Positions 16,747 to 36,200 of a stretch of DNA of 36,561 nt are shown piece by piece (position 1 is the stretch's first letter; each line of letters starts with the position of its first letter). The stretch lies in NCBI GenBank assembly GCA_038093975.1, contig JBBPTG010000240.1:1-36561 (forward strand). Reading direction: 5' to 3'. The stretch is from Chalciporus piperatus (Eukaryota > Basidiomycota > Agaricomycetes > Boletales > Boletaceae). A program made the position numbers and the translations under genes. The notes under the pieces are model-generated. The model searched no databases and was not told where the DNA came from. It worked only from the letters and a program-made list of their open reading frames with translations.

Positions 16747-17227
16747 TCCATATGCTCAAAATGTCCATTGTGTCCCAAAACAAGCGAAACCTTGTGAGTG
16801 ACACCGCCTATCGCTCCCTCTGAGCCGTCGGCGTTGTACACTGGAATAGGAAAAGGAAGTTCTTCCAGTGTCAAACCATGTCGCTCACAGAACGATTTAT
16901 CTATAAAAGTTTCGGTTGCGCCGGAATCCAATAGAGCGGCAAACTCCATTTTCTTCCATTGCTCTCCTTTATCGTACATAATAGTAATAGCGAGATCCAG
17001 CTCGTTTTTCCGATTCTGATTCCTTACATGTATTTTTGATGGGATTTCTTTTTTCGAATAATTTACCTTAAGGGAATTAAGCACGAATTGTTTTACTTCT
17101 GTCGCCACGCCACTAAGGGACGCCCTTTCAGAAGAATAAGAAAATGTATTGTCAAACGAAACATGAGGCCCGGTACTAATACAACCCTTTGGTAAACTAA
17201 GTCCGTGCCTTTGAGAACCCATCTCTC

Positions 17228-18574
17228 TCATCGGCTGTTTCCTTTTAAAGCTTCGGCTGCCTGTGCCTTAGCTTCTGACTCAATGCGGTCGCGCCAATAC
17301 GCTTCCGCTTCTTGGTTGATATATGCCGCTTGATGCGACATGTAACTTGTGCTGGTGGACGGGCCAGCGGGGTAGGGGGAAGGAGTAGGAGGGTAGGGTG
17401 CAGGGATGGTACCTGCGAAGGGCATCTGCCGGTTCTCAAACGGCAGGGAAGTTTCAACGTATTGTTGCGAATATGGATCCCACATAACCACTTGTCTCTG
17501 ATGGGGACGGCGCAGTTTCGGGCAGGCGTTAGCAAAGTGACCAGGCTGATCACAATTGAAACAATTGCCGCGAACCGGCGGTCTTGGCATTTGCTGTGCC
17601 GACAGATCCATCGGGGCTCCACGACCAGGCTGTGTGCCTGTGGGAGTAAAACGGGGGGCCGCATACGGAACGGGGGGACGTGGGAGCGGGCGTGATGCAA
17701 TTGGGTAACGAGGAGGGAGATACGGATATGATGATGAAGGCCTTGGCGCAGTTGCGGGTGCCTGACGGACTGGAGCACCGCGTTCAACGACGATATGTTC
17801 GAAAGTATGACCCAACTTTCGGTAGGTGTCGATCGTGTTGGTTAAATTTTGCTCATCAACATTGGTGTTGATTTGCGCCTGATAATAGATTTTGTAATCT
17901 ATTGCCTTTTTTAGAAGCTCTTTGGCATGAGCATCTTCAATCTCCGATTCCGCTTTCAACAATTCAAACTCCTGTAGGAAGATGTCCACAGGTTTCCCAG
18001 CCTGCTTCAATGCTTCCAATTTTCGAAGACTCTCATGAGCGAGAACGTCTATTTGAAAATGCGATTTGAGGAGATGTGAAAATATTGTCCACGTGGGCCA
18101 TGCTAGTAGTCCCAGGGGTGCTCGAACAGGTTCCTCTGCTGGTCCACCTTCTACTTCTGGTACTGGTGGTGGTGGTAGTAGTTCGTATCGAGACCATTTT
18201 TCTATTGTCATTTGGGCGAACCCAGCCGCTTTTCCTTCTAATCGTGAGAGAACGGCGAGGCATCGAACCTTGTTGTTTGTCCACGTATGGACAGACTGCC
18301 AGGCGTTAACCTGCGCCCACCACAAACGGAACTTGGTGCGGTCACCATCCCATTTCCCAGGGTCGGCAACTTTTTTGGACACGGAGTCCGAATTGTCTGA
18401 AATGGGCGCCTTCAGAGCGGCGGTGAGAGCAGCGATGGGATCAGCTGGATCTGTCATCGGAGTTTCGGGACGGGGAGTGGGGGGAGAGGAACTTTCGGAT
18501 GAGGATGGAAAGTAACGTGGGGGAGATCTGTAACCTTGAGCTTGTGGTTCCTGATCGTATAGCTCTGCTGACAT
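17228..18574 (-). CDS. gag: Element 2 Gag (448 aa)
   Basis: Structural protein that would form the virus-like particle and bind element RNA. N-terminal Pro/Ser-rich region, then a capsid-like helical region (about residues 70-250, including WDGDRTKFRLWWAQVNAW and FLQEFELLKAE), a proline-rich linker, and one CCHC zinc knuckle CFNCDQPGHFANAC near residue 340. A Pro/Tyr-rich tail follows. The stop TGA overlaps an ATG of the pol frame (ATGA), and a slippery heptamer lies 13 nt upstream of it. Intact in this copy. Confidence 0.9.
   Translation of the reverse strand: MSAELYDQEPQAQGYRSPPRYFPSSSESSSPPTPRPETPMTDPADPIAALTAALKAPISDNSDSVSKKVADPGKWDGDRTKFRLWWAQVNAWQSVHTWTNNKVRCLAVLSRLEGKAAGFAQMTIEKWSRYELLPPPPVPEVEGGPAEEPVRAPLGLLAWPTWTIFSHLLKSHFQIDVLAHESLRKLEALKQAGKPVDIFLQEFELLKAESEIEDAHAKELLKKAIDYKIYYQAQINTNVDEQNLTNTIDTYRKLGHTFEHIVVERGAPVRQAPATAPRPSSSYPYLPPRYPIASRPLPRPPVPYAAPRFTPTGTQPGRGAPMDLSAQQMPRPPVRGNCFNCDQPGHFANACPKLRRPHQRQVVMWDPYSQQYVETSLPFENRQMPFAGTIPAPYPPTPSPYPAGPSTSTSYMSHQAAYINQEAEAYWRDRIESEAKAQAAEALKGNSR
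17243..17249 (-). promoter_or_regulatory. Candidate -1 frameshift site T TTA AAA
   Basis: In the Gag frame the codons read GCT TTA AAA GGA, so TTTAAAA is in the correct X XXY YYZ register, five codons before the Gag stop. The -1 frame is then open into protease. Only a weak 5-bp stem (TGAGA/TCTCA) is visible downstream. Reinitiation at the ATGA overlap is the alternative. Confidence 0.7.
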
Positions 18575-19267
18575 ATATCCTTACTGAACCCTATCTTCCA
18601 AAGGTTCTCTGGGGATGACAGACACGAGGACGAAGGAAATATTTTTTCGAGCGGAGGTAATACCTGCGACGCTTATCGGAATCTCGGCAGACCTTCTGAG
18701 GAATTTTCCCAAGATCTGATTTGATTTTACACATACACTACTCTCGAACTTCTTTCTTCGAGCAGTAGCAAAAAGCTAACGTAATACAAGATTTTATTTA
18801 TTGTTTTCTATTTTGTACCTCGGCGGTGCTGCCGGCTTACGTTTCTACGTATGACTCAGCCAAGGGGGCGGCGACGCGCTGTTCCCTTGTCGTCCTTCGC
18901 AATTGGGCACGATCCCAATCCGGTCTTCGAACAAAAATACTATAGTACTGAGGATAACAGAGACGGGGCACTAAAGGCTGGCCCAAAAGAATAGAATAGC
19001 CAAAAGGCGAATGTGTGACGTCAACAGGTGATCACACGAACCTGCGTGGTGTCTACAGTCAGAGGGCTAGTGCTTGCGCAGACCCCAAGACGTCTCGAAC
19101 CACGAAAGAGCCCCTAGTGCACTATGGGGAACAGCAACATTATCCAATTTATAACGGCGGACGGCCGTATATGCAGCAGTGGATGGAGTTGCGGTCTCCT
19201 GTGTGTCACGTACACAAACGGTCTTCTTGACCAACTCTTTAGCCCTAGAGTCCAGGCGGTGTTTTCA
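18575..19267 (-). other. Element 2 5' leader
   Basis: About 690 nt between the primer site and the Gag start. No coding motif was found. Sense-strand ATG occurs only twice (near 18732 and 19139), against six antisense ones, a mild version of the ATG depletion in element 1. Confidence 0.6.
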
Positions 19268-19278
19268 AGTCTAATCCA
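19268..19278 (-). other. Element 2 self-primer binding site
   Basis: Minus-strand TGGATTAGACT, 2 nt inside the 5' LTR, is exactly complementary to AGTCTAATCCA in the LTR (minus strand, 19391-19381), about 33 nt after the TATA box. Match length and spacing equal those of element 1. Confidence 0.8.
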
Positions 19279-19280
19279 AG

Positions 19281-19552
19281 TGTTATGACTGGGTCACAAC
19301 ACAGCGGGGACTTAAGGCAACACTAAGCCTTGCGAAGGAATATGCTGAGTACTAAAGCTTAATTGCGGTGAAGCAACAAATGGATTAGACTGGGGTTTGT
19401 GATAAGTACAGGACTACTTATATACTATTGAGAAGTACGCACAGACCAACAGCCTAATAAGGAAATCACAAAGGGAAAGATAAATAAGGTAAATGGTACG
19501 ATGATAAGAAAAGGTACCAGGCACGGATTAGGGTCTAGGCCATGACATCATT
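19281..19552 (-). repeat. Element 2 5' LTR, truncated by element 3
   Basis: Matches 12430-12701 without a difference that I could see, then switches at 19553 to the LTR of element 3. U5, R and the TATA box remain; the distal U3 is missing. Confidence 0.92.
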
Positions 19553-20069
19553 TGAAACGACCCAAAACTCGTATTGAGATCAGGTCTACACTATCGCCAA
19601 GTGAAGCGGTTTAGAAGAAGAGAATGGAGAGCGACTGAGATAGGACGGTTGAGTCTTGGGGAAAGACCAAGTGAACTAAGCTGGGGTTACCAGCAGTTCC
19701 TTGGGGTTTATATACTATCCTAAGTGTTTGTACATGTTTGTATGTACTATAACTAAATAAGGAGTTCCCCTGAACCCATGAGAATAGAAGCGAGATAAGA
19801 AGGCTGTGAAGCATAGCCGAGATAGCCGAGATGAAGTACATGAGGTGAAAGGCTGTGGCATAGCCATGCGCAGCACGGAGATTAACTGTCAAGGTAAGGC
19901 AGTGCGTGAGAATGAATATAACCATAAGGGGCGACCGTGCGAAGAGTGAAAGTGAATGAGCACGTGTCTGAAAGATAAGATGAGAGAGATTAGATAAGAT
20001 CGAATGGAATGAAACGTTGAAGTCCGCAAAGTGTCTGTGAAGGTGAGAGAACCGTAATGAACCGTAACA
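19553..20069 (-). repeat. Element 3 3' LTR (517 bp)
   Basis: Plus-strand ends TGAAACGACC and CCGTAACA. Terminal sequences (TGTTACG...GTCGTTTCA on the minus strand) resemble the element-1 LTR, and the TATA context ATAGTATATAAACCC is shared. The rest is different sequence. Confidence 0.9.
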
Positions 20070-20083
20070 CTACCCCCTTCCTA
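20070..20083 (-). other. Element 3 polypurine tract
   Basis: Minus-strand TAGGAAGGGGGTAG directly before the LTR start; same layout as in elements 1 and 2. Confidence 0.85.
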
Positions 20084-20102
20084 TGGATCAACTTCCAGGT
20101 GA

Positions 20103-20573
20103 TCAATTTTCCATGTTGTCTGCGTCATGCCACTGCTGCCATCCGTTGGCATCTACGTTCTGCGGAACGTCAAGATGAACGTTGACCAGGGTGGGCGAGC
20201 GTGACGGCTGTCGTGAAGCCACCAGGGCTGGGATGGGGTCATCTGCATAGTGAGGAGGGAGGACGTCGGGATGCATAACTTTAAGGGTCATCCACATCTC
20301 GCTCCACGAGATCTGGTACTCGACGATGGTGGTACGATCCGTCACGAGCATGTGAACGAATCGGCGGGAGGTGTACAGCACGATGAGGGTTACGACCAGC
20401 GTGATGACGACGACGAGAAGGAGAAGGACATAGACGACGACCGGCATGGCCATCAAGAGGAAGAGGGAGGCGCTGATGACAGCGAGCAACGCGGTGCGAT
20501 GAAGTTTGTTGACCGACATGTCGGTCTGAGCGAGGGGACGAGTATAGGCAACACCGTTAAGGTATGCGTCCAT
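20103..20573 (-). CDS. Post-pol two-helix membrane protein of element 3
   Basis: 156 codons between pol and the 3' LTR, the position of env in env-bearing gypsy elements. A short N-terminal part is followed by two strongly hydrophobic helices (about residues 27-47 and 48-67), then RRFVHMLVTDRTTIVEYQIS, the block WSEMWMTLKVMHPD, and a Pro/Asp/Asn-rich tail. The W--MWM-L-V-HPD block and the order helix, helix, charged segment, Pro-rich tail match the ORF at 31045-31611 in element 1. There is no signal-peptide cleavage site, furin-like site or fusion peptide that I can recognise, so an envelope role is not shown. Function unknown. Confidence 0.7.
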   Translation of the reverse strand: MDAYLNGVAYTRPLAQTDMSVNKLHRTALLAVISASLFLLMAMPVVVYVLLLLVVVITLVVTLIVLYTSRRFVHMLVTDRTTIVEYQISWSEMWMTLKVMHPDVLPPHYADDPIPALVASRQPSRSPTLVNVHLDVPQNVDANGWQQWHDADNMEN

Positions 20574-20675
20574 AGTGATTTAGTGTTTTTTTTTAAGAGG
20601 AGGATTTGTTGGGGAATGAAGGGTGGTGGGTGGGCATCCAGGCTTTATATACGTTGTTCCCCTATTTGTCACTGT

Positions 20676-23310
20676 TTATGTGGGCGCAGCCCGTGTTTTT
20701 AATGGACTGGACAGGTTTGCCATGAGTCTATCAATTTTGGCTGGTCCGTTGTCCGTGAGATTTTCTGGACGTTTCCGGAATAGGAATAGAAAATCTGCTG
20801 GGTCAATGGATAGAGCACGAGGTGCGGCTGGATTCTTTGCGTAGAAGTCCTTCAAGCAACCCTTGGCATTTGCCAAATTAGCTCTTGGTTCCCAAGTGCG
20901 ATCGGTCTCATCATAACCTTTCCAGTGCACGAGGTATTCCAGTTTCTTTCCCTTGTATCGTGTATCAACGACGTAGTCGACTTCCCATTCGTTGTCTCGT
21001 TCTTCCGTAACAAGAACTGGTCCAGGCCGTGCCGTTGGCTGGCCGTCAAGGCGGTCCTTGTAAGGTTTGATTCGACGGACATTAACCACCGGGTGAATTC
21101 GAATGTCCCGTGGAAGCTGTAACTTTACTGCATTTGGCCCTGCCAAGGCGATAATTTTAAATGGACCTAGCCATTTTTCAGATAATTTGTCTGATGCGCG
21201 TGTCAAACGCAGGTCTGTGGTTGACAGCATGACTTGCTGTCCAATTTCATATTCGGGCGCAGCCGAGCGGTGTTTATCGGCTAGCGATTTCATGCGTTCC
21301 TGGGCCTTGGCTAGGTTCTTTTCTACATCGGCAATCGTTTTTCGCATTGCGTCTGTGAATGATTTGGCAGCTGGTGCCTGAGAAGTAGAAGCATGTGGTT
21401 CTGTGCCCATGCGTGGTTCATATGAACGTGTGACTTCAAACGGCGATTTCTTCGTTGAAGTATGATACTTGTTATTAATAGAGAACTGGGCGATGGCTAG
21501 CCAGTCTGCCCATTGATTTTGTTTATCGAAGCAGTAGATTCGCAGAAACTTTCCAACTTCTTTGTTTACGATTTCTGATTGTCCGTCTGTCTGCGGATGG
21601 AATGCCGTACTGAGCTTGGTATCAATACCAAGGGCATTATTGATTTCTCTAGCGACTTGCGCTGCGAACTGCGGGCCTCGATCTGATGTGATGGATAAAG
21701 GAAGTCCATGATGCTTCCATACGTGAGAAAGGAATATGCGAGCGGTGTCTAGGGCCGAACACGTTTTTGTGCATGGTATGAGTTCGACTTTTTTTGAGAA
21801 GCGATCTACCACCGTCAAGATTGCATTAAAACCACGTGATTCGGGTAAACCCGTAATGAAATCCGCAGTGATGTGTTGCCAGGGTCCGCTAGGAACCGGT
21901 AATGGTTGTAGAAGACCTGCGGGTGCCTGATTCGTTCCTTTGAATCTTTGACAGGTCTGACAGTGAGACACGTATTCTTTTACGAGAGTGGCGAGTCCAG
22001 GCCACATGTAAAATCGTTGAATGAGTTCTAACGTTTTCTCGTAACCGGGATGTCCTGCAGCCGGTGTGTCGTGGTGTAAGCGGATGATGTCCATTCGGAG
22101 TATGTTATCTTCCGGAATGTACATCCGATCTTCTTCGTCGTAGAGTAAGCCATCAAGCTTCTCATGAATACCCTTCTTCTGGAACTTCTGAACTTCTGTC
22201 TCAGATAGTTTGCATGTTGCAAGGAAGACTCTTTGTTTGATCCGTGCCCCTTCATCTGTCAGGGCGACTGTGCGGATATTCTCGGGAGCAATGACCAATA
22301 TTCCTTTATTGTCATTTTCAACTCCAACGGCGTGGTCTTCTCGTCGTGAGAGAGCGTCAGCTTTTGCCATAGAAGGTCCAGGTTTGTAAACCCAGAGCAT
22401 ATTGAATCTAGATAGATATTGCGCCCAGCGCGCTTGTCGGCGGTTGAGATCCTGTCTTGTCATGAACCACTGCAGGTTTGCGTGGTCGTTCCAAATCTCA
22501 AACTGGTGTCTAGCACCTTCTAGGTAATGTCGCCATTGCTCTAGTGCCTGAATGACTGAGAGCATTTCTTTATCGGCGATAGGGTAATTCCGTTCTTGCG
22601 GAGTCATGGAATGAGATGAATAGGCAACTGGGTGCCATTTGTCTTCTTTCAGAATAGATAAGACTGCGCCTGTTGCGTAATTAGATGCATCACATTCTAA
22701 GCGGAATTGACAAGTGCTATCGGGGAAGGCGAGTATGGGGGCTGAGGTGAAACTCTTTTTCAGCGTATCAAACGCTTTTTGACATTTGTCATCCCATATG
22801 AAGGCTTGTTCCTTTTTGGTTAGGTCATTGAGAGGACGTGCGACTTGCGCGTAGTCCTGAATGAACCTTCGATAGAAGTTTGCTAAACCTAGGAAGCTTC
22901 TTACGCCTTTGACGTTCTTCGGCTCTGGCCATTCCAGTATGGCTGTGACTTTAGATTGATCCATTTTTATCCCATCCTTTCCTACGATCATTCCGAGGAA
23001 TTCAACCTCAGATACACGGAAATTGCATTTTTCGGGTTTTACGAATAGATCGTTTTCTTCCAGTCTGCGAAGAACTTCAAGCACGATTTTGTCATGTTCT
23101 GTCTGATTTTCTGTTTTGGTGAAGATCATCAAATCGTCTATGTAGACGACGAGCACATCTTCCATGTCTGCGAAGATTTCGTTCATCATCGCTTGGAATG
23201 TGCCGGGAGTTACAGAGACCGAAGTACATGACTCGGGGTTCGAAAGAACCACGGAAGCAAACGAAGGCGGCTTTCCATTCATCGCCTTCTTTGATGCGAA
23301 CATTGTTGTA
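20676..23310 (-). pseudogene. Element 3 pol fragment (RT-RNase H-integrase-chromodomain)
   Basis: Begins in RT at [15 protein letters not shown] and reaches [10 protein letters not shown], RNase H (LECDASNYATGAVLS), integrase (HHDTPAAGHPG, CQTCQRF, ADFITGLPESRGF, SDRGPQFAAQ), a GPF/Y-like module (LSEKWLGPFKI) and a chromodomain (YLVHWKGYDETDRTWEP). A frame change near 23205-23212, between CNS and GTFQ, looks like a 2-nt deletion relative to element 1. From about 23200 down to the stop near 20676 the frame is intact over more than 800 codons. Confidence 0.88.
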
Positions 23311-23349: not shown

Positions 23350-24147
23350 GACTGGATCAGTTAAATCAGTAGTCCAGTGGCCCAGTAACAAGTAATTTCA
23401 GTCATTTCAGTAGTTTCAGTAACCTAGTCACCCAGTCATCAAGTAGTTTCAGTAGTCTTAGTAACCCAGTGGCCTAGTGGCCCAGTCATCCAGTCATTTC
23501 AGTAGCTTCAGTAGCTCAGTCATTCAGTCATCCAGTAGTCTCAGTAGTCTCAGTCATCCAGCAGCCCAGTCATCCAGTCATCCAGTCATTTCAGTAGTCT
23601 CAGTAGCTCAGTCATCCAGTCATTCAGTCATTTCAGTGGTCTCATTAGTTCAGTGGCCAAGTGTTCCAGTTATCCAGTAGTTCCAGTAACCCAGCAGCCC
23701 AGTCATCAAGTCATCCAGTTACTTCAGTAGTCTCAGTAGCCCAGTCATTCAGTCATTCAGTCATCCAGTAGTTCCAGTAACCCAGCATCCCAGTCCTCAA
23801 GTCATCTAGTAGTTCCAGTAACCCAGCAGCCCAGTCATCCAATCATCCAGTCACTTCAGTAGTCTCAGTAGCTCAGTAGCCCAGTGTTCCAGTCATCCAG
23901 TTATCTCAGTAGCCTAGTAGCCCAGTTTCCCAGTCATGTAGTCATCTCAGCAGCCTAGTAGCCCAGTGCCCTAGTTATCCAGCAATCCAGTTGTCTCATT
24001 ACTCCAGCCATCCAGTATTCCAGTAATCCAGTAATCTAGTCACTCAGTGGTCCAGTAATCCAGTCACTCCAGTCACTCCAGTCACACAAGTCACACAAGT
24101 CACTCCAGTAATCCAGTCACCTCAGTAATCCAGTCACTCCAGTAATC
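23350..24147. repeat. Minisatellite of 8-9-bp CAGT units
   Basis: Long degenerate array of CAGTCATC, CAGTAGTCT, CAGTGGCC and similar units. It continues beyond element 1 at 32122, and the target duplication TAATC is itself part of a unit. No function evident; frames within it are Ser-rich artefacts. Confidence 0.9.
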
Positions 24148-24486
24148 TGTTACGAACGCTTCATTCCTTATCCTAATCATCCCTACATTCCATTACGCTT
24201 ACTAAGTTTCTTTTCGTTTCGTGGACTTAGTCGTTTCACTTTCTCTTTCATTATCTTATCTTATCGCATCACGTGACTTACTTACATAAGCTAGGTCTAG
24301 ACCTTCGCTTACTAACTGATGACTCACCGCTCACTCGTCAGCATCAGTCAGCATTACTCATCATATGACTCACGCTTACTCATTCCGCAGTAGAGCTAGT
24401 TACGCCATTGGCTAGTAGTCAGTATGAGTCATACCCAGTCACCTACGATAAGGTTTAGCCACAACATGTACAAACATTGACAATAG

Positions 24487-24494
24487 TATATAAA
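24487..24494 (+). promoter_or_regulatory. LTR TATA box
   Basis: TATATAAA in the context ATAGTATATAAACCC. The same core (ATAGTATATAA) occurs in the LTRs of elements 2 and 3 and in the solo LTR. Start of transcription is inferred about 30-35 nt downstream, which coincides with the self-primer 11-mer at 24522. Confidence 0.8.
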
Positions 24495-24521
24495 CCCGGG
24501 TCGACAAGCACTGGACTCTCC

Positions 24522-24532
24522 AGTCTTGTTCT
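24522..24532 (+). other. Self-primer 11-mer in the R region
   Basis: AGTCTTGTTCT, 35 nt after the TATA start; exact reverse complement of the primer site at 24626-24636. Flanked by an inverted repeat CTCCAG/CTGGAG (24518-24523 and 24534-24539). Confidence 0.8.
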
Positions 24533-24587
24533 CCTGGAGTTTCCTCATCGAACCTCAGCCAAGTTCATCGGCTCGCTATTGTCTATT

Positions 24588-24656
24588 GTGAGTCTTAGCT
24601 CTTAGTTGAGTTGAGTCGTTTCATTAGAACAAGACTAATATTTTCTTTTGTCTTAG
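24588..24656 (+). other. Candidate 69-nt intron removing the primer site
   Basis: Donor GTGAGT in U5, branch-like GACTAAT, pyrimidine-rich TTTTCTTTTGTC and acceptor TTAG. If spliced, the RNA loses the end of the LTR and the whole primer site. Signals are good for a basidiomycete intron, but expression data are needed. Confidence 0.5.
24626..24636 (+). other. Element 1 self-primer binding site
   Basis: AGAACAAGACT, 2 nt after the 5' LTR, complementary over exactly 11 nt to the presumed RNA 5' end. No TGG-starting tRNA site is present. This is the arrangement known from Tf1/sushi-group elements. Confidence 0.8.
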
Positions 24657-24766
24657 CGTCTCGTCGCTACCACACGTGTCCTTGTACGCCACTTCAACCG
24701 TTGATCACTAGTGGGTACCGCGCTGCTTGTACGCGCCTTGTCATCGCTGACTTTATTTTTGAATAA

Positions 24767-26021
24767 GTGTCGAGCAACCCCGCCGCATCTCAGCGCGCCG
24801 CGTCCCCTGTACCTTCCATTCAGTGGAACGGTATACTTGATCTCCCCGCCGTCGAGAACAACCTCGATTTCCCCAGCGTCATCAGAAACCTCGAGCGAGC
24901 TGCAGAGGTCTTCCCCGGCTTCACCAGCATCATCGACGACCTCGAGCGAGAGAACGCTCGTGTTCAGGAAGAATACGCTTGCACTCAGGCATTACACGCT
25001 GAGAGACAAAGGGAGACTATTGAGAAGTACTCAGCGCCGATAGTCCCAGAGCCAGACTATTCGGATCTCTACGTTGATTGGTTGGAACCTCCGGTAATTC
25101 CCTCCTACCCATATCATCTACCCTCTGAGGTTTACATTCACCCTCTCGGTACTCTTCGGTCTCCTCACCATCCCGCCAATCTCCAGATCGGCACTCGTCG
25201 ATTTCCGTCGCTCCCTCCCATCGAGGCTATTCGGGCACCGTTGCCGCCCAACCCCCAGCAGATACTAGCCGACGCCTTCGGCGTTGAAGAGTTATATTAC
25301 CGTGCCTCCTCCATCCCCAGAGCCCCAACTCCGCTCGCGGAACCCGTTGATTGGACAGCCGTCGACGAGGATCTTCTTGCTCTTCAACACCAATTCCCCA
25401 TTGGAGTCTCTGGTCGTACGGAAAGTTTCCGCCGCGCTCTCTATCACACGCTTATATCCCCGGCAGGTGAGAAGTCGATTCGAGAGAACATTGACGCTCG
25501 GGTACGTCAACGCCGACGAAGCGACAGGTTACTTAGAGGTATCCCTGAGAACGCCGGTACTCGTATTAAGGAAAGAGTATCAACCCCGCGTCCTACTCGC
25601 CGCACTCGCCGCCCTAAGCCTCTCGTCCCTCTTAGGAAAATTCGCCCAGTACAGCTTACAGGCCTTCCTATTACTTTCATACCTCATCTTCGGCCACGTA
25701 ATTCTCTCAGACGACCTTCGCGTTACCTTTGATTTCGCCTACATCCTTGTATCTCACAGGAATCGTCCAGTAGCACTACCTACTCCTCCACCTTCCCCTG
25801 TTGTATCACAAGCAGAGTTAGAAGAAGACGAAGAATTACCAGGATTAGTAGAGTCTGATAGTGAAGACGAAGGAGGACTAAGAGAGACAAACGCGCCAGG
25901 AGTGCAACTGTACTATCCCGCACCTCATTCCATCAGAAGAAGTATCCCACCGCCACCTTATCAAAGAGACGCCCCTGCTTCGTTATCAGGAGAAACCCTT
26001 GAAGGATCTCAGGAGATCTGA
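24767..26021 (+). other. AUG-less pre-gag reading frame with candidate intron
   Basis: One frame is open from after TAA at 24764-24766 to 25732; a second, in the +1 frame, is open to TGA at 26019-26021. A 61-nt intron (25467-25527, GTGAGA...ACAG) would join them in phase. The joined product of about 400 residues has a coiled-coil-like segment (LERENARVQEEYACTQALH), a Pro-rich middle, one hydrophobic stretch (LLAALAALSLSSLLGKFAQY onwards) and an acidic Pro-rich tail. Neither frame has a Met codon, and no ATG occurs upstream in the predicted transcript, so translation would need a non-AUG start. It could equally be untranslated leader with fortuitous frames. No homologue is recognised. Confidence 0.45.
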
Positions 26022-26064
26022 AATAAAAATCTAGTTTTATCCCTTTCATTCTAGTGCATCAAGA

Positions 26065-27267
26065 ATGTCGGTTCTCGCTCCAGACTTAGCAGCTGCCTTA
26101 ACAGGCATTCTCGGACATCGTGACGCGTCCATACGGGATCTTGGAACGCAGTTGAGACTCGCGTTAGAAACAATGACGGATCAGCTTACCAACGCTCAAA
26201 GGGTAAATCAAAATCTAAACAATAATATCTTGCAGCTTGAAGCGCAAGTACAAGCCATTCAAATACCTGGCGCAGTACCAGCTCCTACGGTTGGACCTAG
26301 CGGACCTAAGTTATCCAAAATCGTCAAAGATCCAGGAGATTACGATGGATCTAGAGGAAGAAAGTTCGAAGAATGGTGGACAAGAGTCCGTGCATGGATA
26401 GATGAAAACAACACCGTGTTAACCGGAATGACGGCGATCAGAGCTATCCTTAGTCGAATGACAGGAGGAGACGCCGCTACTTTCTCACGAGCCATGACAC
26501 ATGACATCTTGGAGAATGGAACCACGTATACTTCCGCCGAGTTCCATAAACGAATCACCGATCAATTCCGCTCGGGCAACGAGGTGGAATATCACCGCAA
26601 CCAGATCAAGAATCTGAAACAAGGCAAGATGTCTATGGAGAAATTCCTTACCACGTTCCAGACTCATCGCCTCATGGACGATTGGAGTGACGCGCGACAC
26701 ATCGAACTTCTAGAACTAAACGCAGATCCAGAGATCACGCATCGGATCTTTATGGATAAGGGACGGTTCGACAAATATGACACATACGTCGAAGAACTAC
26801 GTCTCCTTGCAGGAAGAAAACAACTTATCTCCATGATCAAGACAGGAACCGCAGGTGATACCCCGCGATATAAATATACCAACACGGGCACACAACCGGG
26901 TCGTGGTGCCCCAATGGATATAGGTTCTGCCGAAATCGAACAAGGAGAAATTGTTGAAGAAGAAGAAGAAGCATCATCTGTCGTAAAGGCGGCCACAAGC
27001 AATTCCAAAGAGAAGAAGCAAGGAAATTGCTGGAATTGTGGGAAACCGGGACATCCAAAGCAACAATGTCCGGTGCCTAGTACCAAATGCAAGAATTGTG
27101 GTTGGTCACGAGGCGAACACAAACGTGCCTGTAAACTTCAGAAGAGACAGGTGAGAGAACTGTCTACCGAATCTAGTACTCTTGAAGGCCGTTCATTCGA
27201 CGAAATGAAGGCTTACTTCTACGATATGAAAGATATCGAAATGAAGGGAAAAGGCAAAGCGGCCTGA
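26065..27267 (+). CDS. gag: Element 1 Gag (400 aa)
   Basis: Starts at the first ATG after the LTR TATA box. A coiled-coil-like N-terminal part (residues 25-70) is followed by a capsid-like region (about 90-260, with EEWWTRVRAWIDENNTV and MSMEKFLTTFQTHRLMDDW), a basic/acidic linker, and two zinc knuckles: CWNCGKPGHPKQQC (classical CX2CX4HX4C) and, 14 residues later, CKNCGWSRGEHKRAC (atypical CX2CX6HX3C). It ends five codons after a slippery heptamer; pol overlaps in the -1 frame. A good acceptor-like sequence (TTTCATTCTAG, ending 26054) lies 10 nt before the start, so a gag mRNA spliced in the leader is possible. Confidence 0.93.
   Translation: MSVLAPDLAAALTGILGHRDASIRDLGTQLRLALETMTDQLTNAQRVNQNLNNNILQLEAQVQAIQIPGAVPAPTVGPSGPKLSKIVKDPGDYDGSRGRKFEEWWTRVRAWIDENNTVLTGMTAIRAILSRMTGGDAATFSRAMTHDILENGTTYTSAEFHKRITDQFRSGNEVEYHRNQIKNLKQGKMSMEKFLTTFQTHRLMDDWSDARHIELLELNADPEITHRIFMDKGRFDKYDTYVEELRLLAGRKQLISMIKTGTAGDTPRYKYTNTGTQPGRGAPMDIGSAEIEQGEIVEEEEEASSVVKAATSNSKEKKQGNCWNCGKPGHPKQQCPVPSTKCKNCGWSRGEHKRACKLQKRQVRELSTESSTLEGRSFDEMKAYFYDMKDIEMKGKGKAA
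27246..27252 (+). promoter_or_regulatory. Candidate -1 frameshift site G GGA AAA with downstream stem
   Basis: Gag codons read AAG GGA AAA GGC, putting GGGAAAA in X XXY YYZ register. After a 6-nt spacer, GCGGCC (27259-27264) can pair with GGACCGC (27283-27289), six GC pairs with one bulged A, with the Gag stop in the loop. The -1 frame is open from about 27186, so the overlap with gag is about 80 nt. Confidence 0.78.
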
Positions 27268-30200
27268 ATGATCTGGGCAAACGGACCGCAACTAACTCGT
27301 TAGGAAAATCTGTAAACTATTCACACAGTCAAACGGGGTCTCATGTTGATCATGAGCTTGGCCTGGACTCTAGTCAGGTGCTTAATTCCGTTTCTATAAT
27401 CCGATATCTTTCCGAAAACCCAGGACCACGTTTCATTCGCACGACGGATCGAGAATTGAAGCTATCTACTTCCATCGCTTCGCAACGCCTTCCTTCTGCT
27501 TTCACACGAGCAGAAGCACTTCTTGATTCAGGAGCTAATGCTATCTTCGTTGATCGGAGATGGGCTGATAAAATCAAATTACCCCTCGTGCAACTCAGAC
27601 ATCCACTTACGGTGTACAACGTGGACGGAACACATAACTCCGCTGGACAGATAACACACTGTGCGGAAATCATTATCCATTTCAACGGACATCGTGAGAA
27701 GGCCATTGCAGAAGTCACTGATCTCGGAAAGAATCAGGTGATACTAGGATACGCATGGCTGAAGCAACACAATCCGGAAATAGATTGGAACAAAGGAACG
27801 GTCCACATGACACGTTGTCCTTGGTCTTGTTCCGTCTTACGAGATAAACCACCATTCGCACGACAACTTGATGATGAAGAACGAAATTCTCTTCGTCACA
27901 TCAACGCCGCAAAGAGGGAGGTACCTGAACCAAAAATGGAAAAGACTCCGGAAGAGCTTGTTCCAAAAGAATATCACAAGTATATTCACCTGTTCAAGAA
28001 AAAGGAATCTGAACGCATGCCAACTCGTAAGCCGTGGGATCATGCAATTGACTTGAAAGACACCTACAAGCCGAAAAAGGGTCGTCTTATCCCACTCTCT
28101 GTCACGGAACAAGAAGAAGTCAGCGCATTCATTGATGATCAGCTCAAGAAAGGATACATTCGTCCTTCCAAATCTGAGCAGACTTCTCCCGTGTTCTTCG
28201 TTCCTAAGAAAGATGGCAAGAAACGCATGGTTCAAGATTACCGTTATCTGAATGAACACACGGTGAAAAACAACTACCCATTACCCCTCATTTCCCAATT
28301 GGTTGATAAACTGAAAGGCGCAAAACTGTTTACCAAAATGGACTTACGTTGGGGATACAACAACATCCGCATCAAAGAAGGCGATGAATCTAAAGCCGCA
28401 TTCGTGTGCTTCCGTGGCGCCTTCGAACCCTTGGTCATGTACTTCGGATTATGCAATTCTCCTGCGACATTTCAAACCATGATGAACGACATCTTCTCGG
28501 ATATGGAAGACGCCGTTGTTGTCTACATTGATGACATCATGATCTTTACCAAATCCGACGACCCTGCTGTCCATGCCAAAATAGTCAGAGAAGTTCTTCG
28601 TCGCCTAGAAGAAAATGACCTCTTCGTCAAACCAGAGAAATGTGTCTTCCATACCAAAGAAGTAGAATTCTTGGGAATGACAATTACTCCCGAGGGAATC
28701 AGGATGGATGACAATAAGGTCAAGGCAATCACCGAATGGCCAACTCCGACAAACGTCAGAGGTGTCAGAAGCTTCCTTGGGTTAGCAAACTTCTATCGCC
28801 GCTTCATTCAGGATTACGCCCAAGTGGCTAGACCCTTGAATGATCTTACCAAGAAGGATACGAAATTCGCATGGGAAGACGCGCAGAAGAACGCCTTCAA
28901 CACGTTGAAACAGAAGTTCATCACCGCTCCCATACTCGCTTTCCCAGACAATGACAAACGCTTCCGTCTAGAATCGGATGCATCTAATTATGCCACGGGT
29001 GCTGTTCTATCTATAGAACAAGGAGACAAATGGCATCCCGTCGCGTTCTCTTCTCACTCCATGTCACCGGAAGAACGCAACTATCCTATCGCGGATAAAG
29101 AGATGCTAAGCGTAATCAGAAGTCTAGAACAGTGGAGACATTATCTGGAAGGTTCCAAGCACGAGTTTGAAATTTGGAACGATCACGCGAACCTTCAGTT
29201 CTTCATGACTCGGCAAGATTTAAATCGTCGCCAAGCACGTTGGTCTCAATATCTTAGCCGATTCAATTTCAAATGGTTACACAAGGCCGGTTCCCAAATG
29301 GGGAAAGCCGATGCCTTATCAAGAAGAGAAGATCACGCAATCGGTATCGAAGCAGATAACAAAGCTGTTCTGGTAATACCTCCGGACAGAATAGCTGCCA
29401 CGTCAACGGTTCAACTCTCAACCGATTCCGATTTGATCAAAAACAAAATCAGAAAAGCAACCTTCAAAATACGTGAGACAGAAGTCATGAAGCTCTGTAA
29501 GGAACACGGCATTTGTGAAGAGTCTGATGGAATTCTGATTGACAAGAAAGGAAGACTATACGTTCCTGAAGAAGAAAATCTCCGCATGGAGATTATTCGA
29601 CTTCATCACGATACACCCCTTGCTGGGCATCCCGGATATGAGAAGACAATTGAACTGTTACAGCGCAGTTATGCCTGGCCAGGAATGGCTACGCTCGTAA
29701 AAGACTACATCTCACGCTGTGACAGATGTGCACGTTTCAAAGGGATAAACTATGCTCCTTCTGGAAAGCTCCGCCCCCTTGAAGTTCCGGATCTTCCCTG
29801 GGAACATATCTCTGCAGATTTCACTACCGATCTGCCACTCTCGAATGGATTCGATTCTATCCTTGTCGTCGTAGACAGATTCTCCAAAGAAGTCGAATTC
29901 ATTCCTTGCAACAAGACGGTTACCGCTCTCGACACCGCCCGTCTTTACTTAACCCATGTATGGAAACATCATGGACTTCCTAAAACCATCATATCGGACC
30001 GAGGTCCGCAATTCGCATCTCAAGTGATGAAAGACATATGCAAACGTCTTGGCATTACGCCCAAACTCTCCACCGCCTTTCATCCCCAAACTGATGGACA
30101 AACTGAGCGCATGAATCGAGATCTACAACAGTATCTCCGTCTATTCACGTCAGAAAAACAAGAAGAATGGACTGATTGGCTACCAATAGCGCAATTCTCA

Positions 30201-30980
30201 TACAACTCGAAGAAGCAAGCCTCTACATCCAAGGCACCTTTCAACGTGACGCACACATATTCCCCGAGAATGGGAATAGAGAATTACACATCTAAAGCAC
30301 CCGCTGCTACGGACTTTGTTGACACGCTTGCCAACACGTTGAAAGAAACCAAGGATAACATAATAGAAGCTCAGAAACGTATGAAGACGCAGGCCGACAA
30401 ACACCGCTCTGAATCACCATCTTACGAAATTGGTCAGAAAGTTTGGTTGTCTACAGCTAATCTCCGCCTGGCGCAGAGATCTAAGAAACTTTCCCCACGA
30501 TGGTTAGGCCCTTACGAAATCACAACCCTGATTGGACGGAACGCACTACGTTTGAAGCTTCCGCGTACCATGAAAATTCACCCCGTCGTTAATGTTTCAC
30601 GTGTCAAACCATATAAGGACAGGTTACGGAAGCAAACCGTTGATAAGCCTGGGCCTGTGATTGTGACAGAAGACAGAGATGATGAATACGAGGTGGATTA
30701 CATTGTTGATTCTCGTTTACAGGGAAAAACCCTGAAATACCTCGTACACTGGAAAGGCTATGCGGAATCTGATCGGACATGGGAACCGAGATCGAATCTC
30801 AAAAATGCACCAGATGCAATAAGGGAATTCAACAAGATACATCCGTCCGCCCCACGATTCCTTCGCATGTCACGGAGTCTATTCGAGTCACTGTTCCAGC
30901 CGTATGACAACTTAACGAGTCAGGTGGATGATGGACAAATTAATTGGTTGAATACCGTGCCAGATACCGAAAAGGTATAA
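27252..30980 (+). CDS. pol: Element 1 Pol (made as Gag-Pol by -1 frameshift)
   Basis: 1242 codons after the slip. Order: aspartic protease (LLDSGAN near 27520), reverse transcriptase (FTKMDLRWGYNN, FGLCNSPATFQ, VVYIDDIMIFT near 28525), RNase H (ESDASNYATGAVLS), integrase with an HHCC finger (HHDTPLAGHPG, CDRCARF) and DDE residues in ADFTTDL, SDRGPQF and TERMNRD, a GPF/Y-like module (LSPRWLGPYEI), and a chromodomain (YEVDYIVDS, LVHWKGYAESDRTWEP, about 30680-30850). A conserved tail (SLFQPYDNLTS) follows, also present in elements 2 and 3. No break seen. The chromodomain may guide integration to chromatin marks, as known for chromoviruses. Confidence 0.95.
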   Translation, partial: RQSGLNDLGKRTATNSLGKSVNYSHSQTGSHVDHELGLDSSQVLNSVSIIRYLSENPGPRFIRTTDRELKLSTSIASQRLPSAFTRAEALLDSGANAIFVDRRWADKIKLPLVQLRHPLTVYNVDGTHNSAGQITHCAEIIIHFNGHREKAIAEVTDLGKNQVILGYAWLKQHNPEIDWNKGTVHMTRCPWSCSVLRDKPPFARQLDDEERNSLRHINAAKREVPEPKMEKTPEELVPKEYHKYIHLFKKKESERMPTRKPWDHAIDLKDTYKPKKGRLIPLSVTEQEEVSAFIDDQLKKGYIRPSKSEQTSPVFFVPKKDGKKRMVQDYRYLNEHTVKNNYPLPLISQLVDKLKGAKLFTKMDLRWGYNNIRIKEGDESKAAFVCFRGAFEPLVMYFGLCNSPATFQTMMNDIFSDMEDAVVVYIDDIMIFTKSDDPAVHAKIVREVLRRLEENDLFVKPEKCVFHTKEVEFLGMTITPEGIRMDDNKVKAITEWPTPTNVRGVRSFLGLANFYRRFIQDYAQVARPLNDLTKKDTKFAWEDAQKNAFNTLKQKFITAPILAFPDNDKRFRLESDASNYATGAVLSIEQGDKWHPVAFSSHSMSPEERNYPIADKEMLSVIRSLEQWRHYLEGSKHEFEIWNDHANLQFFMTRQDLNRRQARWSQYLSRFNFKWLHKAGSQMGKADALSRREDHAIGIEADNKAVLVIPPDRIAATSTVQLSTDSDLIKNKIRKATFKIRETEVMKLCKEHGICEESDGILIDKKGRLYVPEEENLRMEIIRLHHDTPLAGHPGYEKTIELLQRSYAWPGMATLVKDYISRCDRCARFKGINYAPSGKLRPLEVPDLPWEHISADFTTDLPLSNGFDSILVVVDRFSKEVEFIPCNKTVTALDTARLYLTHVWKHHGLPKTIISDRGPQFASQVMKDICKRLGITPKLSTAFHPQTDGQTERMNRDLQQYLRLFTSEKQEEWTDWLPIAQFSYNSKKQASTSKAPFNVTHTYSPRMGIENYTSKAPAATDFVDTLANTLKETKDNIIEAQKRMKTQADKHRSESPSYEIGQKVWLSTANLRLAQRSKKLSPRWLGPYEITTLIGRNALRLKLPRTMKIHPVVNVSRVKPYKDRLRKQTVDKPGPVIVTEDRDDEYEVDYIVDSRLQGKTLKYLVHWKGYAESDRTWEPRSNLKNAPDAIREFNKIHPSAPRFLRMSRSLFESLFQPYDNLTSQVDDGQINWLNTVPDTEKV

Positions 30981-31044
30981 GAGGCTGATGTTTGACGATC
31001 TTTTACTCTCACGGTTTCTCTTCCACGAACCACCATCATCACCA

Positions 31045-31611
31045 ATGGATCTCAACGACGTCTACGCTTGGGAGAATGTTCTCCGCGACATTTTCATTCG
31101 AAACTTCACTAGAGATCGAGGCAACTTTGTCCTCTCCCTCCTCTTTGTACTCTTCGTCATCTGCAACGGCTGGATCCTCCGCATGCTCATCCCCTCCCTC
31201 CTCGCTTTCATCGCTATCGCTGTCGTCACCATCGCTATTCAATATCTCATGTTCGCTCGGATGATCGTGACTAGACGGTCCACGTCTATCGAGGTTAACT
31301 GGGACTGGACGACAAGGTGGATGAAGCTTGTTGTATGGCACCCAGATTTGAGCAAATGGGACAACGTGGTAGAAGTACAGCAGGAGAATCCTGATCAGCA
31401 GGAATGGCCCACAAATTGGCCTACTCTCGCTGAACCTCCTATTCCCGACCCTGCACTCGTAGGTGCTCCCCACCCTATCCCCGTCGATGAAAACGATGGT
31501 AACCCATTCGAGCCACCAGTGACCTGGACAAACAACAACCTTCAGGTCGCTACTGCTCCGCCAGCAGATGGAGTACCGTGGATGAATCAAGGTCCACTCG
31601 TCGAAATCTGA
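31045..31611 (+). CDS. Post-pol two-helix membrane protein of element 1
   Basis: Open from 30988, 7 nt after the pol stop, to 31611; I prefer the ATG at 31045 (context ACCAATGG) because the element-3 homologue also begins Met-Asp. 188 residues: charged start, two hydrophobic helices (NFVLSLLFVLFVICNGWILR and LLAFIAIAVVTIAIQYLMFA), a basic segment with RRSTSIEVNWDW, the block TRWMKLVVWHPD, and a Pro/Asp/Glu-rich tail. The W--W-KL-V-HPD block is shared with element 3. Translation could follow reinitiation after pol or a spliced RNA. No envelope hallmarks were recognised; a role in particle assembly or membrane association is conjecture. Confidence 0.75.
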   Translation: MDLNDVYAWENVLRDIFIRNFTRDRGNFVLSLLFVLFVICNGWILRMLIPSLLAFIAIAVVTIAIQYLMFARMIVTRRSTSIEVNWDWTTRWMKLVVWHPDLSKWDNVVEVQQENPDQQEWPTNWPTLAEPPIPDPALVGAPHPIPVDENDGNPFEPPVTWTNNNLQVATAPPADGVPWMNQGPLVEI

Positions 31612-31645: not shown

Positions 31646-32121
31646 TGTTACGAACGCTTCATTCCTTATCCTAATCATCCCTACATTCCATTACGCTTAC
31701 TAAGTTTCTTTTCGTTTCGTGGACTTAGTCGTTTCACTTTCTCTTTCATTATCTTATCTTATCGCATCACGTGACTTACTTACATAAGCTAGGTCTAGAC
31801 CTTCGCTTACTAACTGATGACTCACCGCTCACTCGTCAGCATCAGTCAGCATTACTCATCATATGACTCACGCTTACTCATTCCGCAGTAGAGCTAGTTA
31901 CGCCATTGGCTAGTAGTCAGTATGAGTCATACCCAGTCACCTACGATAAGGTTTAGCCACAACATGTACAAACATTGACAATAGTATATAAACCCGGGTC
32001 GACAAGCACTGGACTCTCCAGTCTTGTTCTCCTGGAGTTTCCTCATCGAACCTCAGCCAAGTTCATCGGCTCGCTATTGTCTATTGTGAGTCTTAGCTCT
32101 TAGTTGAGTTGAGTCGTTTCA
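31646..32121 (+). repeat. Element 1 3' LTR (476 bp)
   Basis: I found no difference from the 5' LTR in a base-by-base read. Followed by the TAATC duplication at 32122-32126. Confidence 0.97.
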
Positions 32122-32230: not shown

Positions 32231-32275
32231 TCTAATTAGTGACATTTTATAATCATTCATAGGATGGATTATAGC

Positions 32276-32965
32276 TAAAGTCCACAAAAATGTGTACTAA
32301 AAGTGTAGTTAACAATGTGGGAAAGGGTATTAGGATTGAGTGTAGTGAAGTGTACAAAAAAGCGTAGTAAAAGTGTAGTTACAAGTGTGGGAAAGTATAG
32401 CTAGATTGAGTGAGCAAAGTGTACAAAAAAAGTGTAGTAAAAGTGTAGTAAAAGTGTGGGAAAGTGTAGCTAGATTGAGTGTAGCTAAAGTGTACAAAAA
32501 AGCGTAGTAAAAGTGTAGTCAAGAGTGTGGGAAAGTATAGCTAGATTGAGTGTAGCAAAAGTGTACAAAAAAGCGTAGTAAAAGTGTAGTGAAATGTGTG
32601 GGAAAGTGTGTAGTGATAGAGTGTAGCTAAAGTGGACAAAAAAGCGTACTAAAAGTGTAGTTACAAGTGTAGTGATTGAGTGTAGCAAAGTGTAACAAAA
32701 AAGCGTAGTAAAACTTGAATCAAATGTGTAGGAAAGTGTAGCTAGATTGAGTGTAGCAAAAGTGTACAAAAAAGCGTAGTAAATGTGTAATTACAAGTGT
32801 GGGAAAGTGTATTAGGTTAGAGTGTAGCAAAAGTGTACAAAAAGCGCAGTAAGTGTGTAGTTAAAAGTGTAGCAAAGTATGTGGAGATCAAACCTATTGA
32901 AAGTGTACAAAAAAGCATACACAAGTGTACAAAAAATATGGTAGCTATCTAGTGTAGGAGATCCT
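32276..32965. repeat. AT-rich tandem repeat of about 70 bp
   Basis: About nine imperfect copies. Each holds GTGTACAAAAAAGCGTAG, AAAAGTGTAG, GTGTGGGAAAG and GCTAGATTGAGTG in that order; starts of the GTACAAAAAA block fall near 32352, 32421, 32492, 32563 and 32633. Later copies are more diverged. No gene is visible in it. Confidence 0.88.
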
Positions 32966-33211: not shown

Positions 33212-36200
33212 ATGTCAGAACCAACCGAACTGCCCGTCAAACGTGGCCGTGGCCGCCCCAAAGGATCCAAGAACAAACCGGGCGCACGAAATGTTGGTCG
33301 CCCATACAAAGATGGTCGGCCACCTCAACCTCAAAAGCCTCGTGAGGCACAACTCGGTAAGCTCGATGAGCTCTCCTTTCGAGATTTCACTCACAACCAG
33401 GCCACACCAGCTTCCCAAGATCCCCAGGTTACCACCACACCAAGCACGAGCGGATCAGCCGCTGCGGCAAATAAAACAACGATTCAGCCGATAGCCAACA
33501 CAGGTATGTAGTAGTAGTATTTCGAGCACTGACAAACGACCCGCTAACCACCGCGCGAAACAAAACAGGCCACCAGACCGTACAGGCTCGCGATCGAGCT
33601 GATCCGCCCGAAAACTCGACGACCGTACCTCAAAAACCCGCCCAGTCTGTTCCTCGCGCCGGAAACAATCGCTCGGAGGGTCCAAAGGAGGCTGTAGATC
33701 ACACAGCAGCTGAGCCAGCTGCAAAACAGGGTGAGGGTGGTCCTGCCGCACATCGTGAGTACTCCCAGCTTGTCCGACAGTTGATTTTGATGACTGACTT
33801 GGAATGACATCCAGAGATCCACGAGAAACCCGAAACACAAAAGAACTCAGCCGATTCCCCCCCGATCGTGCACGGCGAGGTTCGCCACCCATCCCCTGTC
33901 CATCCGAGCACAGACGACCCATCCGCACATGCCGATGTTGTCGATCTGACTCACACGGACTCCGACATCGAACCTACCATCACAGATATCGACCACCCTT
34001 ATGCTGCCGATGCCTCATCGCCACAGGAAACCGCTCCCGTCGTCATCGAGACCTCATCATTGGGTGAGAAACTGCCCCCGGCAGATGTCGGAGGTCTGCC
34101 CGAGGCCAGCTCGCTGCCTCAGGCTGTGCGTCAATGGGCAGCTCCACAGGTCGACAACCCATATGGGTCAGACTTGACGGCCACTTTGCAGAGTATCACA
34201 GAGGAAAAGGATGACGAGGAGGAAGAGCCTGAGGGAGAAGAGGACCCTGAAGTAGAGAATGAATTTAGAATGAGTCCCGATGATGAACCTGACCGAGAGC
34301 CCATGTCCACGGAGACAGCAGCTGCCAATGCTGCTTCATCAAAGCCCTCGCAGTTCCGATCGACAATGCCACTTTGGCTGAAGGCCGAGTACCTTCGTGT
34401 TCGCGACCAGCTCGTCCGTGAAATCAAACAGAACCGGTCCCACATGCCATCATGTTACGATAGATACTCGTTTTATGATGGCGGAGAAAGCCAATTCCTT
34501 GCTGCTCGCTCATCATATGATGGCTCATCTGCTGCCACATTTCACCGACCTCGATTCTTTGTCTGGCTTCCCCATCTCTTCGTTGACAAGATCCCCTGCC
34601 CTGCCTGTCTGGCTGCAGGTAGGTCAGGCACGAAGACTGCACGAGTATACCTATCCAAGCATGGCTTTGCGGACAGCTCACGCCGCACCGTCGACATCGA
34701 TCAATGTGTTTACCTCATTGGCTATCGATACATCTGTCCCCACTCTCAGTGTCGCCGCAACTACCAGAGTTGGAGTCCATCACTGCTCACTGCACTCCCA
34801 AGGGTGATTGCAGATCAGTTCACCTTCCGTCTCACATACCGCTCTGGGCTAACCGATCGTCTGGTGGCACTCCTTCGAGAGTCATCACGAATTGGTCTGG
34901 GTCCAAAGGTCTTCACAACGATGGTCCAGACGCTTCACTATCGTCGCTATGATCAGCTCCGATGCCAGTTTCTGGAGCTCCTTGCTGCCAATCGTAAAGG
35001 CACACTCACCCACTGCTGGTCAAACTCGACCACCGCCTCCTTTGGGGAGTTTGGAGATCGCAATGGGTATGCGGGCTTTGTTCCAAGTGCACAATACTTC
35101 AATCACTTTTACAACATGATGGTTGAAGAAGAAACCCCTGAGCTACAACAGGTGATTTGCTCTCGACCTGCAACTATTCTCAAGCATGATCATACATTCA
35201 AGGTGAGCTCCTGGTAGTCAGCCTGCATGTCATCCAAGCATTCTAACCAGGTCCTAGATTGCCAAACGAATCTGCAAGAAGGGTGGAGTTCCAGTGTTCA
35301 CAGCCCTTCATACCTTCATCAATGAATACAGTGAGATCCGGGGCATGACATTCACTCTTTCAAAGGCACAAGATGGCTGGGCCCCTGTGATGCAGTCAAT
35401 CCTTCCCTCCCTTCAGGCTTATGGTCACTCACCTCCACGAGTTGTATACACGGACAACGTCAGAGCAGATCGAGACAAGCTGCTGTCCATCTTCCCCTCT
35501 CTCATGAATGATGTTATTCCCCCCAGCTCTACGACATCTTACGAGGAGCTAATGCTACCCTCAAACTGGAGGGTGGTTCAGCTCACCACAGCTCAACAAG
35601 TGAACTTGCAGTTCAACGTCATCATGAATCACCACACTGATGCAACCCCTGTCGTGATTGGCTTTGGGCTTCAGTTTCCAGTGCAGATCTCAACAGGACT
35701 CTCTGGGCGTGTTGCTGTCATTGAGGTTGCATATCAGAAGACAGTCTATCTGATTCAGGTGTGTATGCCTGTGATGTTGAAGAATGTTGTACATTGAGTT
35801 GACCATTTCTTACTAGACCCATTCCTTCATGCATGATGGGTACATCACTCTCCCACATGCACTACAGACCTTCCTATGCTCAGAGGTCTATAAGAAGGTT
35901 GGTGTGGATGTCAGAGTCAACTTCAAGCGGCTGCATGGTGATTGTACCCCCAACTCAACTGGACCATTTCTGGGCCATGTTGAGCTCTTCAACCTGATCA
36001 AGAACCACTTGCCCCTTCCATTCAGTGGCAGCATGTCCCTGGTTTCACTATGTGCTTCTATCCTTCGAAAGCGCTTTGTGCAGAATCCTGAGGTCTGCAT
36101 CAGCCAAGATTGGGTAGAGAAGTCCTTGAAGCCTGTGTTTGTTGCTTATGCAGCATTGCATGTGTATGCTGCATGGCACATTTACGAGGTCCTCACCACC

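Follow-up and report, generated by a model that had tools for sequence, protein, structure and literature searches.

An ATG-free coding leader and a predicted intron-split start codon in a Ty3/gypsy retrotransposon of Chalciporus piperatus

A Ty3/gypsy retrotransposon of the fungus Chalciporus piperatus carries upstream of gag a coding leader without a single ATG. Probably, the AUG of its first leader protein, A, is produced by splicing position 24710 to position 24768, whereas the unspliced RNA would be scanned through to Gag. The evidence is drawn from the sequences: copies of the leader avoid ATG, constraint acts on two overlapping frames (A and B), the splice signals are conserved, and one copy of a related family lacks the intron. 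For this retrotransposon, here called element 1, we infer from these patterns splicing, scanning and a switch between two messages. All positions refer to the window, that is, the whole stretch of 36,561 nt that was analysed (contig JBBPTG010000240.1 of assembly GCA_038093975.1, forward strand), and a slash within a motif marks a predicted splice junction.

Results

Element 1 is a Ty3/gypsy chromovirus (Metaviridae), as indicated by the order protease, reverse transcriptase, RNase H and integrase, by a C-terminal chromodomain and by TG...CA LTRs around gag and pol (Table 1). Within pol, Pfam recognises RVP_2 (32-146), RVT_1 (275-436), RT_RNaseH (524-629), rve (807-903) and Chromo (1104-1153), and Gag has four relatives with identities of 28-42% in a search of 5.8 billion proteins. 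The gag and pol frames overlap at 27190-27380 with pol in -1, suggesting frameshifting, and an extra ORF with hydrophobic segments lies downstream of pol (30988-31611; Pfam matches sub-threshold only). The TATA box has the same place relative to the leader at loci L077 and L079; L080 has TATATAAG. Like the Tf1/sushi chromoviruses, element 1 is of the Ty3/gypsy type and has 11 bases at its predicted RNA start that are complementary to the primer-binding site (PBS), as Tf1/sushi self-priming would require; we know of no leader gene or intron in Tf1. In Tf1 itself the PBS pairs with the first 11 bases of the RNA (excerpts of PMC7175516). Because 24522-24532 is the complement of 24626-24636, by the same rule the RNA of element 1 probably starts near 24522, 35 nt past the start of the TATA box, which would give a leader of about 1540 nt.

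Table 1. Features of element 1 in the window
Feature	Position	Strand	Remarks
5' LTR	24148-24623	+	TG...CA; identical direct repeat
TATA box (TATATAAA)	24487-24494	+	read in the sequence
Predicted RNA 5' end and self-primer (AGTCTTGTTCT)	24522-24532	+	longest exact complement 11 nt; start predicted by analogy with Tf1
Primer-binding site (self-priming)	24626-24636	+	complement of 24522-24532, just past the 5' LTR
Predicted intron, 57 nt	24711-24767	+	donor GTGGGT after A (24710); branch CTGAC at 24747-24751; acceptor AAG before TG (24768)
Frame A	24768-25732	+	320 codons follow the split AUG, ending at a stop; basic C-terminus; lacks Met
Frame B	25350-26021	+	in +1 to A; opens at 25269, with constraint beginning only at about 25350; hydrophobic middle and acidic tail
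gag	26065-27267	+	Retrotrans_gag E 1.9e-4, 22 bits (curated cut-off 24.1); zinc knuckle E 0.0086; its AUG (26065) is the first of the unspliced RNA
pol	27378-30980	+	protease, RT, RNase H, integrase, chromodomain (Pfam)
3' LTR	31646-32121	+	identical to 24148-24623

The original prediction held that the plus strand has no ATG between the TATA box of the LTR and the ATG of gag. Indeed, none lies between the neighbouring ATGs at 24466 and 26065, whose spacing of 1599 nt is the largest in the window (runner-up, 588 nt). The segment 24521-26064 contains no ATG and 25 CAT, the number of CAT that had been estimated. As also proposed, the gap opens where the transcript should begin, with the TATA box at 24487 and an RNA start predicted near 24522 by the Tf1 rule. 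The random expectation of about 25 ATGs was too high, since 2000 dinucleotide shuffles of the same segment contained 10.7 on average. None of these shuffles had fewer than 3.

Copies of the leader were found at 39 or more further loci of the genome (40 of 374 candidates were scored). Thirty-eight of them were aligned with the window to give 39 rows, L045 being left out for its internal LTR insertion; rows L025, L026, L029 and L030 were trimmed at 3' breakpoints and L041 and L046 at the 5' end, and several rows stop at a contig end. These rows hold 58,694 nt of leader with 11 ATG against 1004 CAT, and 30 of the 39 have no ATG at all, the nine others carrying one or two each. Elsewhere the same rows are rich in ATG, with 4-7 wherever U3 is complete, in keeping with the ATGs that had been noticed upstream of the gap, and 21-28 wherever gag is complete. 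When the substitutions of each copy were reassigned to random sites of the same base, around 125 leader ATGs were expected (range 95-153 in 200 trials), or 121.6 in a second computation, compared with the 11 observed. Gains of ATG in the leader amount to 0.09 of expectation, the lowest value among the 64 trinucleotides, whereas in gag of the same copies the ratio is 1.36 (rank 57 of 64). The effect is strongest in 25353-26021, where ATG gains fall to 0.02; in 24768-25352 taken alone, TGG is more avoided than ATG (0.13 versus 0.19), which comes second. Gains of GGG, TGG and TAA are also low across the whole leader (0.22-0.24), and together with the rarity of TGG in 24768-25352 this indicates that composition and coding contribute to the ATG effect. 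Taken together, the copies support negative selection against ATG in the leader, as originally suggested.

What does the leader encode? Frame A, open from 24767 to 25732, begins directly after a TAA with GTG TCG AGC. In 33 of the 39 rows (the incomplete rows L026, L030, L037, L043, L044 and L046 being left out), dN/dS of frame A is 0.27 in 24767-25267, as opposed to 1.63 and 1.18 in the other two frames, and dN/dS of frame B is 0.14 in 25734-26018, as opposed to 1.37 and 2.06; gag of these rows gives 0.10. Where A and B overlap, the values are 0.38 for A, 0.62 for B and 1.73 for the third frame. Substitutions turn from mostly A-silent to mostly B-silent at about 25350-25358, and translation of B therefore probably begins from about 25350. 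Within the window columns, A and B are free of stops in every aligned row, although L021 and L046 have frame-breaking deletions and some other copies of A and B in the genome do contain stops. The leader thus appears to encode two overlapping proteins under purifying selection. Neither contains an internal methionine (0 in the 320 residues of A and 0 in the 223 of constrained B), compared with 14 in 400 in Gag. No homologue of A was found at E≤0.001 among 5.8 billion proteins, and neither A nor B matched Pfam or the sequences of the PDB. AlphaFold models of B and A, with a mean pLDDT of 39.5 and 48.1, were not good enough to search for similar folds.

The start of frame A coincides with the end of a predicted intron. 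The 3' end of this intron reads AATAAG/TG at 24767/24768, so that the G of the GTG opening frame A is the last base of the intron; in silico removal yields ATC ACT ATG TCG AGC AAC, and frame A then begins Met-Ser-Ser-Asn-Pro. Among 16 aligned A proteins, the 29 residues following this Met are invariant except at one position. The pattern A/GTRNGT..CTRAC..AG/TG is intact in all 38 aligned rows that cover the site, and none of 5000 shuffles of the region reproduced the motif of element 1. Genome-wide, AGTRGGT..CTGAC..AGTG has 90 matches, compared with 21 of the reversed control, and by hand count about 63 of the 90 end within 6 nt of a match to frame A. The predicted introns are 50, 51, 53, 56, 57, 58 or 62 nt long at different loci, with A/TG kept throughout. 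Such differences, which are not multiples of three, are expected of an intron, unlike a translated stretch. At four loci A/TG flanks the predicted intron signals while the unspliced sequence has no AUG for A, and the base at -3 of the joined AUG is a purine at all four junctions (A in element 1 and in families C9 and C19, G in family C51). Moreover, only the split A/TG keeps the unspliced RNA clear of ATG, since AT/G would need ATGT at the donor. A point against the prediction is that element 1 and C9 have an AAG acceptor; AAG is rarer than YAG at intron acceptors. Introns this short and of this type fit the genome, since the transposase-like gene of the window (from 33868 on) has two, of 55 and 58 nt with donors GTGAGC and GTGTGT and TAG acceptors, whose excision leaves one open frame.

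A candidate first intron is seen at 24588-24656 (GTGAGT ... TTTTCTTTTGTCTTAG), and its removal would take the PBS out of the spliced RNA. At the matching place of C19 (L080, 437-506) we read GTAAGT, GTTAAC and CCCTAG, and none was seen in C51. No copy joined across 24588-24656 was present in the genome at up to 3 mismatches.

A comparable origin for the start of B found no counterpart. The sole AG/TG in the phase of B, apart from the donor site at 24710, is at 25901, the branch-like stretch 25290-25305 differs between copies by eye, and no convincing intron emerged from the donors and acceptors conserved within A and its surroundings. Candidate routes to B are initiation at a non-AUG codon, a +1 frameshift out of A and another splice.

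If the intron is real, spliced RNA should occasionally be reverse transcribed and leave copies with joined exons, and we therefore searched the genome for them. The family of element 1 itself has no such copy at up to 3 mismatches. The joined-exon pattern of C51, in contrast, has one match in the genome, C311:20716-20738, with two mismatches just upstream of the join, and its reversed control has none. Alignment of L077:400-800 to the genome, in which 40 of 86 candidates were scored, gave 29 places spanning the query from base 1 to at least base 399. All but one of them are 397-402 bases long; the exception is C311, where 350 bases align to 401 with 87% identity including the gap, so that it is shorter by 51 bases, the predicted intron having 50. 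The end of the alignment places TG at the predicted exon start (20726). The leader frame of this copy is open for 277 codons, compared with the usual 262, and is 100% identical to that of C51. As known from the 23 letters at the join and from the alignment coordinates, C311 lacks the intron at its predicted boundaries and looks like what reverse transcription of a spliced RNA would leave behind. The retention of the intron length at the other 28 places suggests, in turn, that most genomic RNA is unspliced.

The arrangement extends beyond close relatives. Diverged families were found through gag, and one locus of each was examined. In C9, whose A is 62% identical, A/GTGGGT..CTGAC..AATAAG/TG is kept, and the part of the leader read has one ATG, 5' of the intron. 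In C19 (Gag 55% identical), A/GTAGGT..CTGAC..ACAG/TG bounds 53 nt and is in frame with about 20 codons, which by eye resemble the start of A, before the copy is interrupted; B and the C-terminal part of A that it overlaps can be recognised. The C19 leader has no ATG in 950 nt outside two presumed insertions, which do contain ATGs. In C51 (Gag 50% identical), A/GTGCGT..TTAAC..GTAG/TG bounds a 50-nt intron in frame with an ATG-less ORF of 262 codons that bears no resemblance to A by eye. Here the leader has no ATG in 1025 nt (shuffles average 4.4, with zero in 10 of 2000), and the ORF has no stop in 37 of its 38 genome matches and a dN/dS of 0.27 between C51 and C55; as an exception to the rule, the part of the leader read in C55, which belongs to the C51 family, has three ATGs. 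In 5000 shuffles each, the motif arose twice for C19 and, with the branch relaxed to TRAC, once for C51. The C51-type motif with TTAAC had 3 genome matches against 6 for the reversed control because the gap range used excluded the commonest spacing, that of C51 itself. These single loci suggest that the split-AUG layout recurs in families whose Gag is 50-55% identical to that of element 1.

Discussion

In the model that we favour, a single promoter would give rise to two messages, unspliced and spliced. The unspliced RNA would serve both as genome and as mRNA for Gag; lacking an AUG over about 1540 nt, it would let ribosomes scan through to gag, a reading that fits the gap in the leader. In the spliced RNA the first AUG would be that of A; ribosomes may get to B through a +1 shift in A or initiation at a non-AUG codon. 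A stray ATG in the leader would capture scanning ribosomes and lower Gag. In consequence, ATG would be purged from all frames, even within A and B, and, the genome being the unspliced RNA, nearly all copies would retain the intron. The original prediction, which covered neither the coding frames nor the intron, had offered translation of the leader from non-AUG codons as another reason for the gap. It was right in so far as the leader appears to be coding, in two frames, and frame B may start at a non-AUG codon; for the start of frame A, the A/TG that splicing would restore is the better explanation. More tentatively, and with odds that we place somewhat below even, splicing could work as a one-bit switch: the start codon cut by the intron would keep the genomic RNA free of AUG over 1.5 kb for Gag, removal of the intron would yield a message for A and the membrane-like B, and the second, PBS-spanning intron (24588-24656) may bar that message from reverse transcription.

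Could frame A instead start on the unspliced RNA at a non-AUG codon, either the GTG at 24767 or a near-cognate, so weakly that most ribosomes pass on to gag? The GTG right behind the TAA invites this reading, an AUG-free leader would serve leaky scanning equally well, and the glyco-Gag of MLV is a precedent for a weak non-AUG start ahead of gag. We nevertheless consider it unlikely, since it leaves unaccounted for the donor, branch and acceptor kept across families, the frame-breaking intron lengths and the loss in C311, and the GTG has a T at -3; ORF I of rice tungro bacilliform virus (RTBV) provides a further precedent for such a start (excerpts of PMC5902531). We find it similarly improbable that nearly all translated RNA has lost the intron, with A as the main product and Gag translated on the spliced RNA through leaky scanning, reinitiation or internal entry. 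In favour of this reading, the splice signals of C19 (GTAGGT, CTGAC, CAG) are good. However, avoiding ATG within A and B would be nearly purposeless if the start of A captured the ribosomes, unless scanning past A is common, and 28 of the 29 C51-family places that span the site keep the intron length.

Two further readings treat the gap as a by-product or an accident. That Gag is made from a shorter RNA with its 5' end within the leader is very improbable, as the avoidance spans from the R region to the AUG of gag with its onset near the promoter, and an RNA start near 24522 agrees with the self-priming match. Chance or base composition could be invoked because the leader is G-poor in places and gains of GGG, TGG and TAA are rare as well (0.22-0.24). 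Yet the 2000 shuffles never went below 3 ATG, ATG is the extreme of all 64 trinucleotides in the leader and not in gag, and the ATG-free leader of C51 was equalled by only 10 of 2000 shuffles, so that we attach almost no weight to this explanation. The reading that remains by far the likeliest is the one in which the unspliced RNA would be scanned through to Gag and splicing would supply the AUG of A.

Each device of this model has a counterpart elsewhere. Plant Ogre elements and gammaretroviral glyco-Gag also have extra coding sequence 5' of gag, the ORF1 of Ogre with its own AUG and glyco-Gag as a CUG-started extension of Gag. Unlike these, element 1 has two separate frames, both out of frame with gag. 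Epstein-Barr virus (EBV), a herpesvirus, makes latent RNAs of multiple exons and is unconnected with reverse transcription, and we know of no long AUG-free stretch in its EBNA-LP system. In EBV, splicing creates the AUG of the leader protein EBNA-LP (excerpts of PMC3751371 and PMC12451641). As would be the case for A, the product of this splice-made AUG is a leader protein encoded ahead of further ORFs, the first being EBNA2, on RNAs that are alternatively spliced; the likeness implies no relatedness. In RTBV, the polyprotein ORF is reached by ribosomes that scan about 900 nt across ORFs I and II, which have been cleared of internal AUGs; ORF I starts at AUU, and the RNA also undergoes a splice, which serves the distal ORF P4 (excerpts of PMC5902531). 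Element 1 shares with RTBV and badnaviruses long upstream ORFs free of internal AUG, but differs in its leader of about 1540 nt, in the overlap of its frames and in a predicted split AUG for A in place of AUU. The barley LTR retrotransposon BARE1 has unspliced and spliced RNA pools with different coding use; 104 nt are spliced out at the end of gag, so that a stop follows Gag, and DNA copies of the spliced RNA could not be amplified (excerpts of PMC3735527). In contrast, C311 looks like a DNA copy of spliced RNA, and the excerpts on BARE1 describe no leader protein. Among the papers listed by exact-phrase searches of an open-access collection, judged by titles and the openings of abstracts, we found no retrotransposon with a splice-made start codon, nor any case combining a splice-made AUG, AUG-cleared scanning and spliced and unspliced retrotransposon pools. 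The individual devices are thus known from EBV, RTBV and BARE1, and their combination in one retrotransposon is apparently new.

Why would a retroelement cut a start codon with an intron? It must use one RNA as both genome and mRNA. If our model is right, the intron-cut start codon is a minimal device by which the splicing state alone picks the protein that is made, and it would explain how an ATG-free leader hides two conserved proteins from gene finders that rely on ATG. Moreover, because selection against ATG can be read in dozens of copies within one genome, the distance that fungal ribosomes scan and the cost of each stray AUG might become measurable.

Other features of the window

Element 3 (12425-19552, minus strand) is a gag-pol element with 277-nt LTRs that are 99.6% identical, a pol split in two ORFs and, by eye, a self-priming-like match. 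Considered as a second instance of the same system, it was rejected: two ATGs lie between its TATA box and gag (18574, minus), and its leader has no ORF longer than 65 codons. Element 2 (19552-23303, minus) is apparently the 3' part of a C51-family element, with the end of pol, an ORF and an LTR at about 19552-20070, as judged by eye against L077; the ORF after pol (20103-20573, minus) has hydrophobic segments and sub-threshold Pfam matches only. Short degenerate repeat arrays flank element 1 at 23358-24134 and at 32260-32929, where the repeats of the latter array recur about every 71 nt. Another LTR of the element 1 family, 96% identical, on the same strand and possibly solo, is found at 9581-10055, and a DUF6729/MULE-like transposase gene with two short introns occupies 33868-36000.
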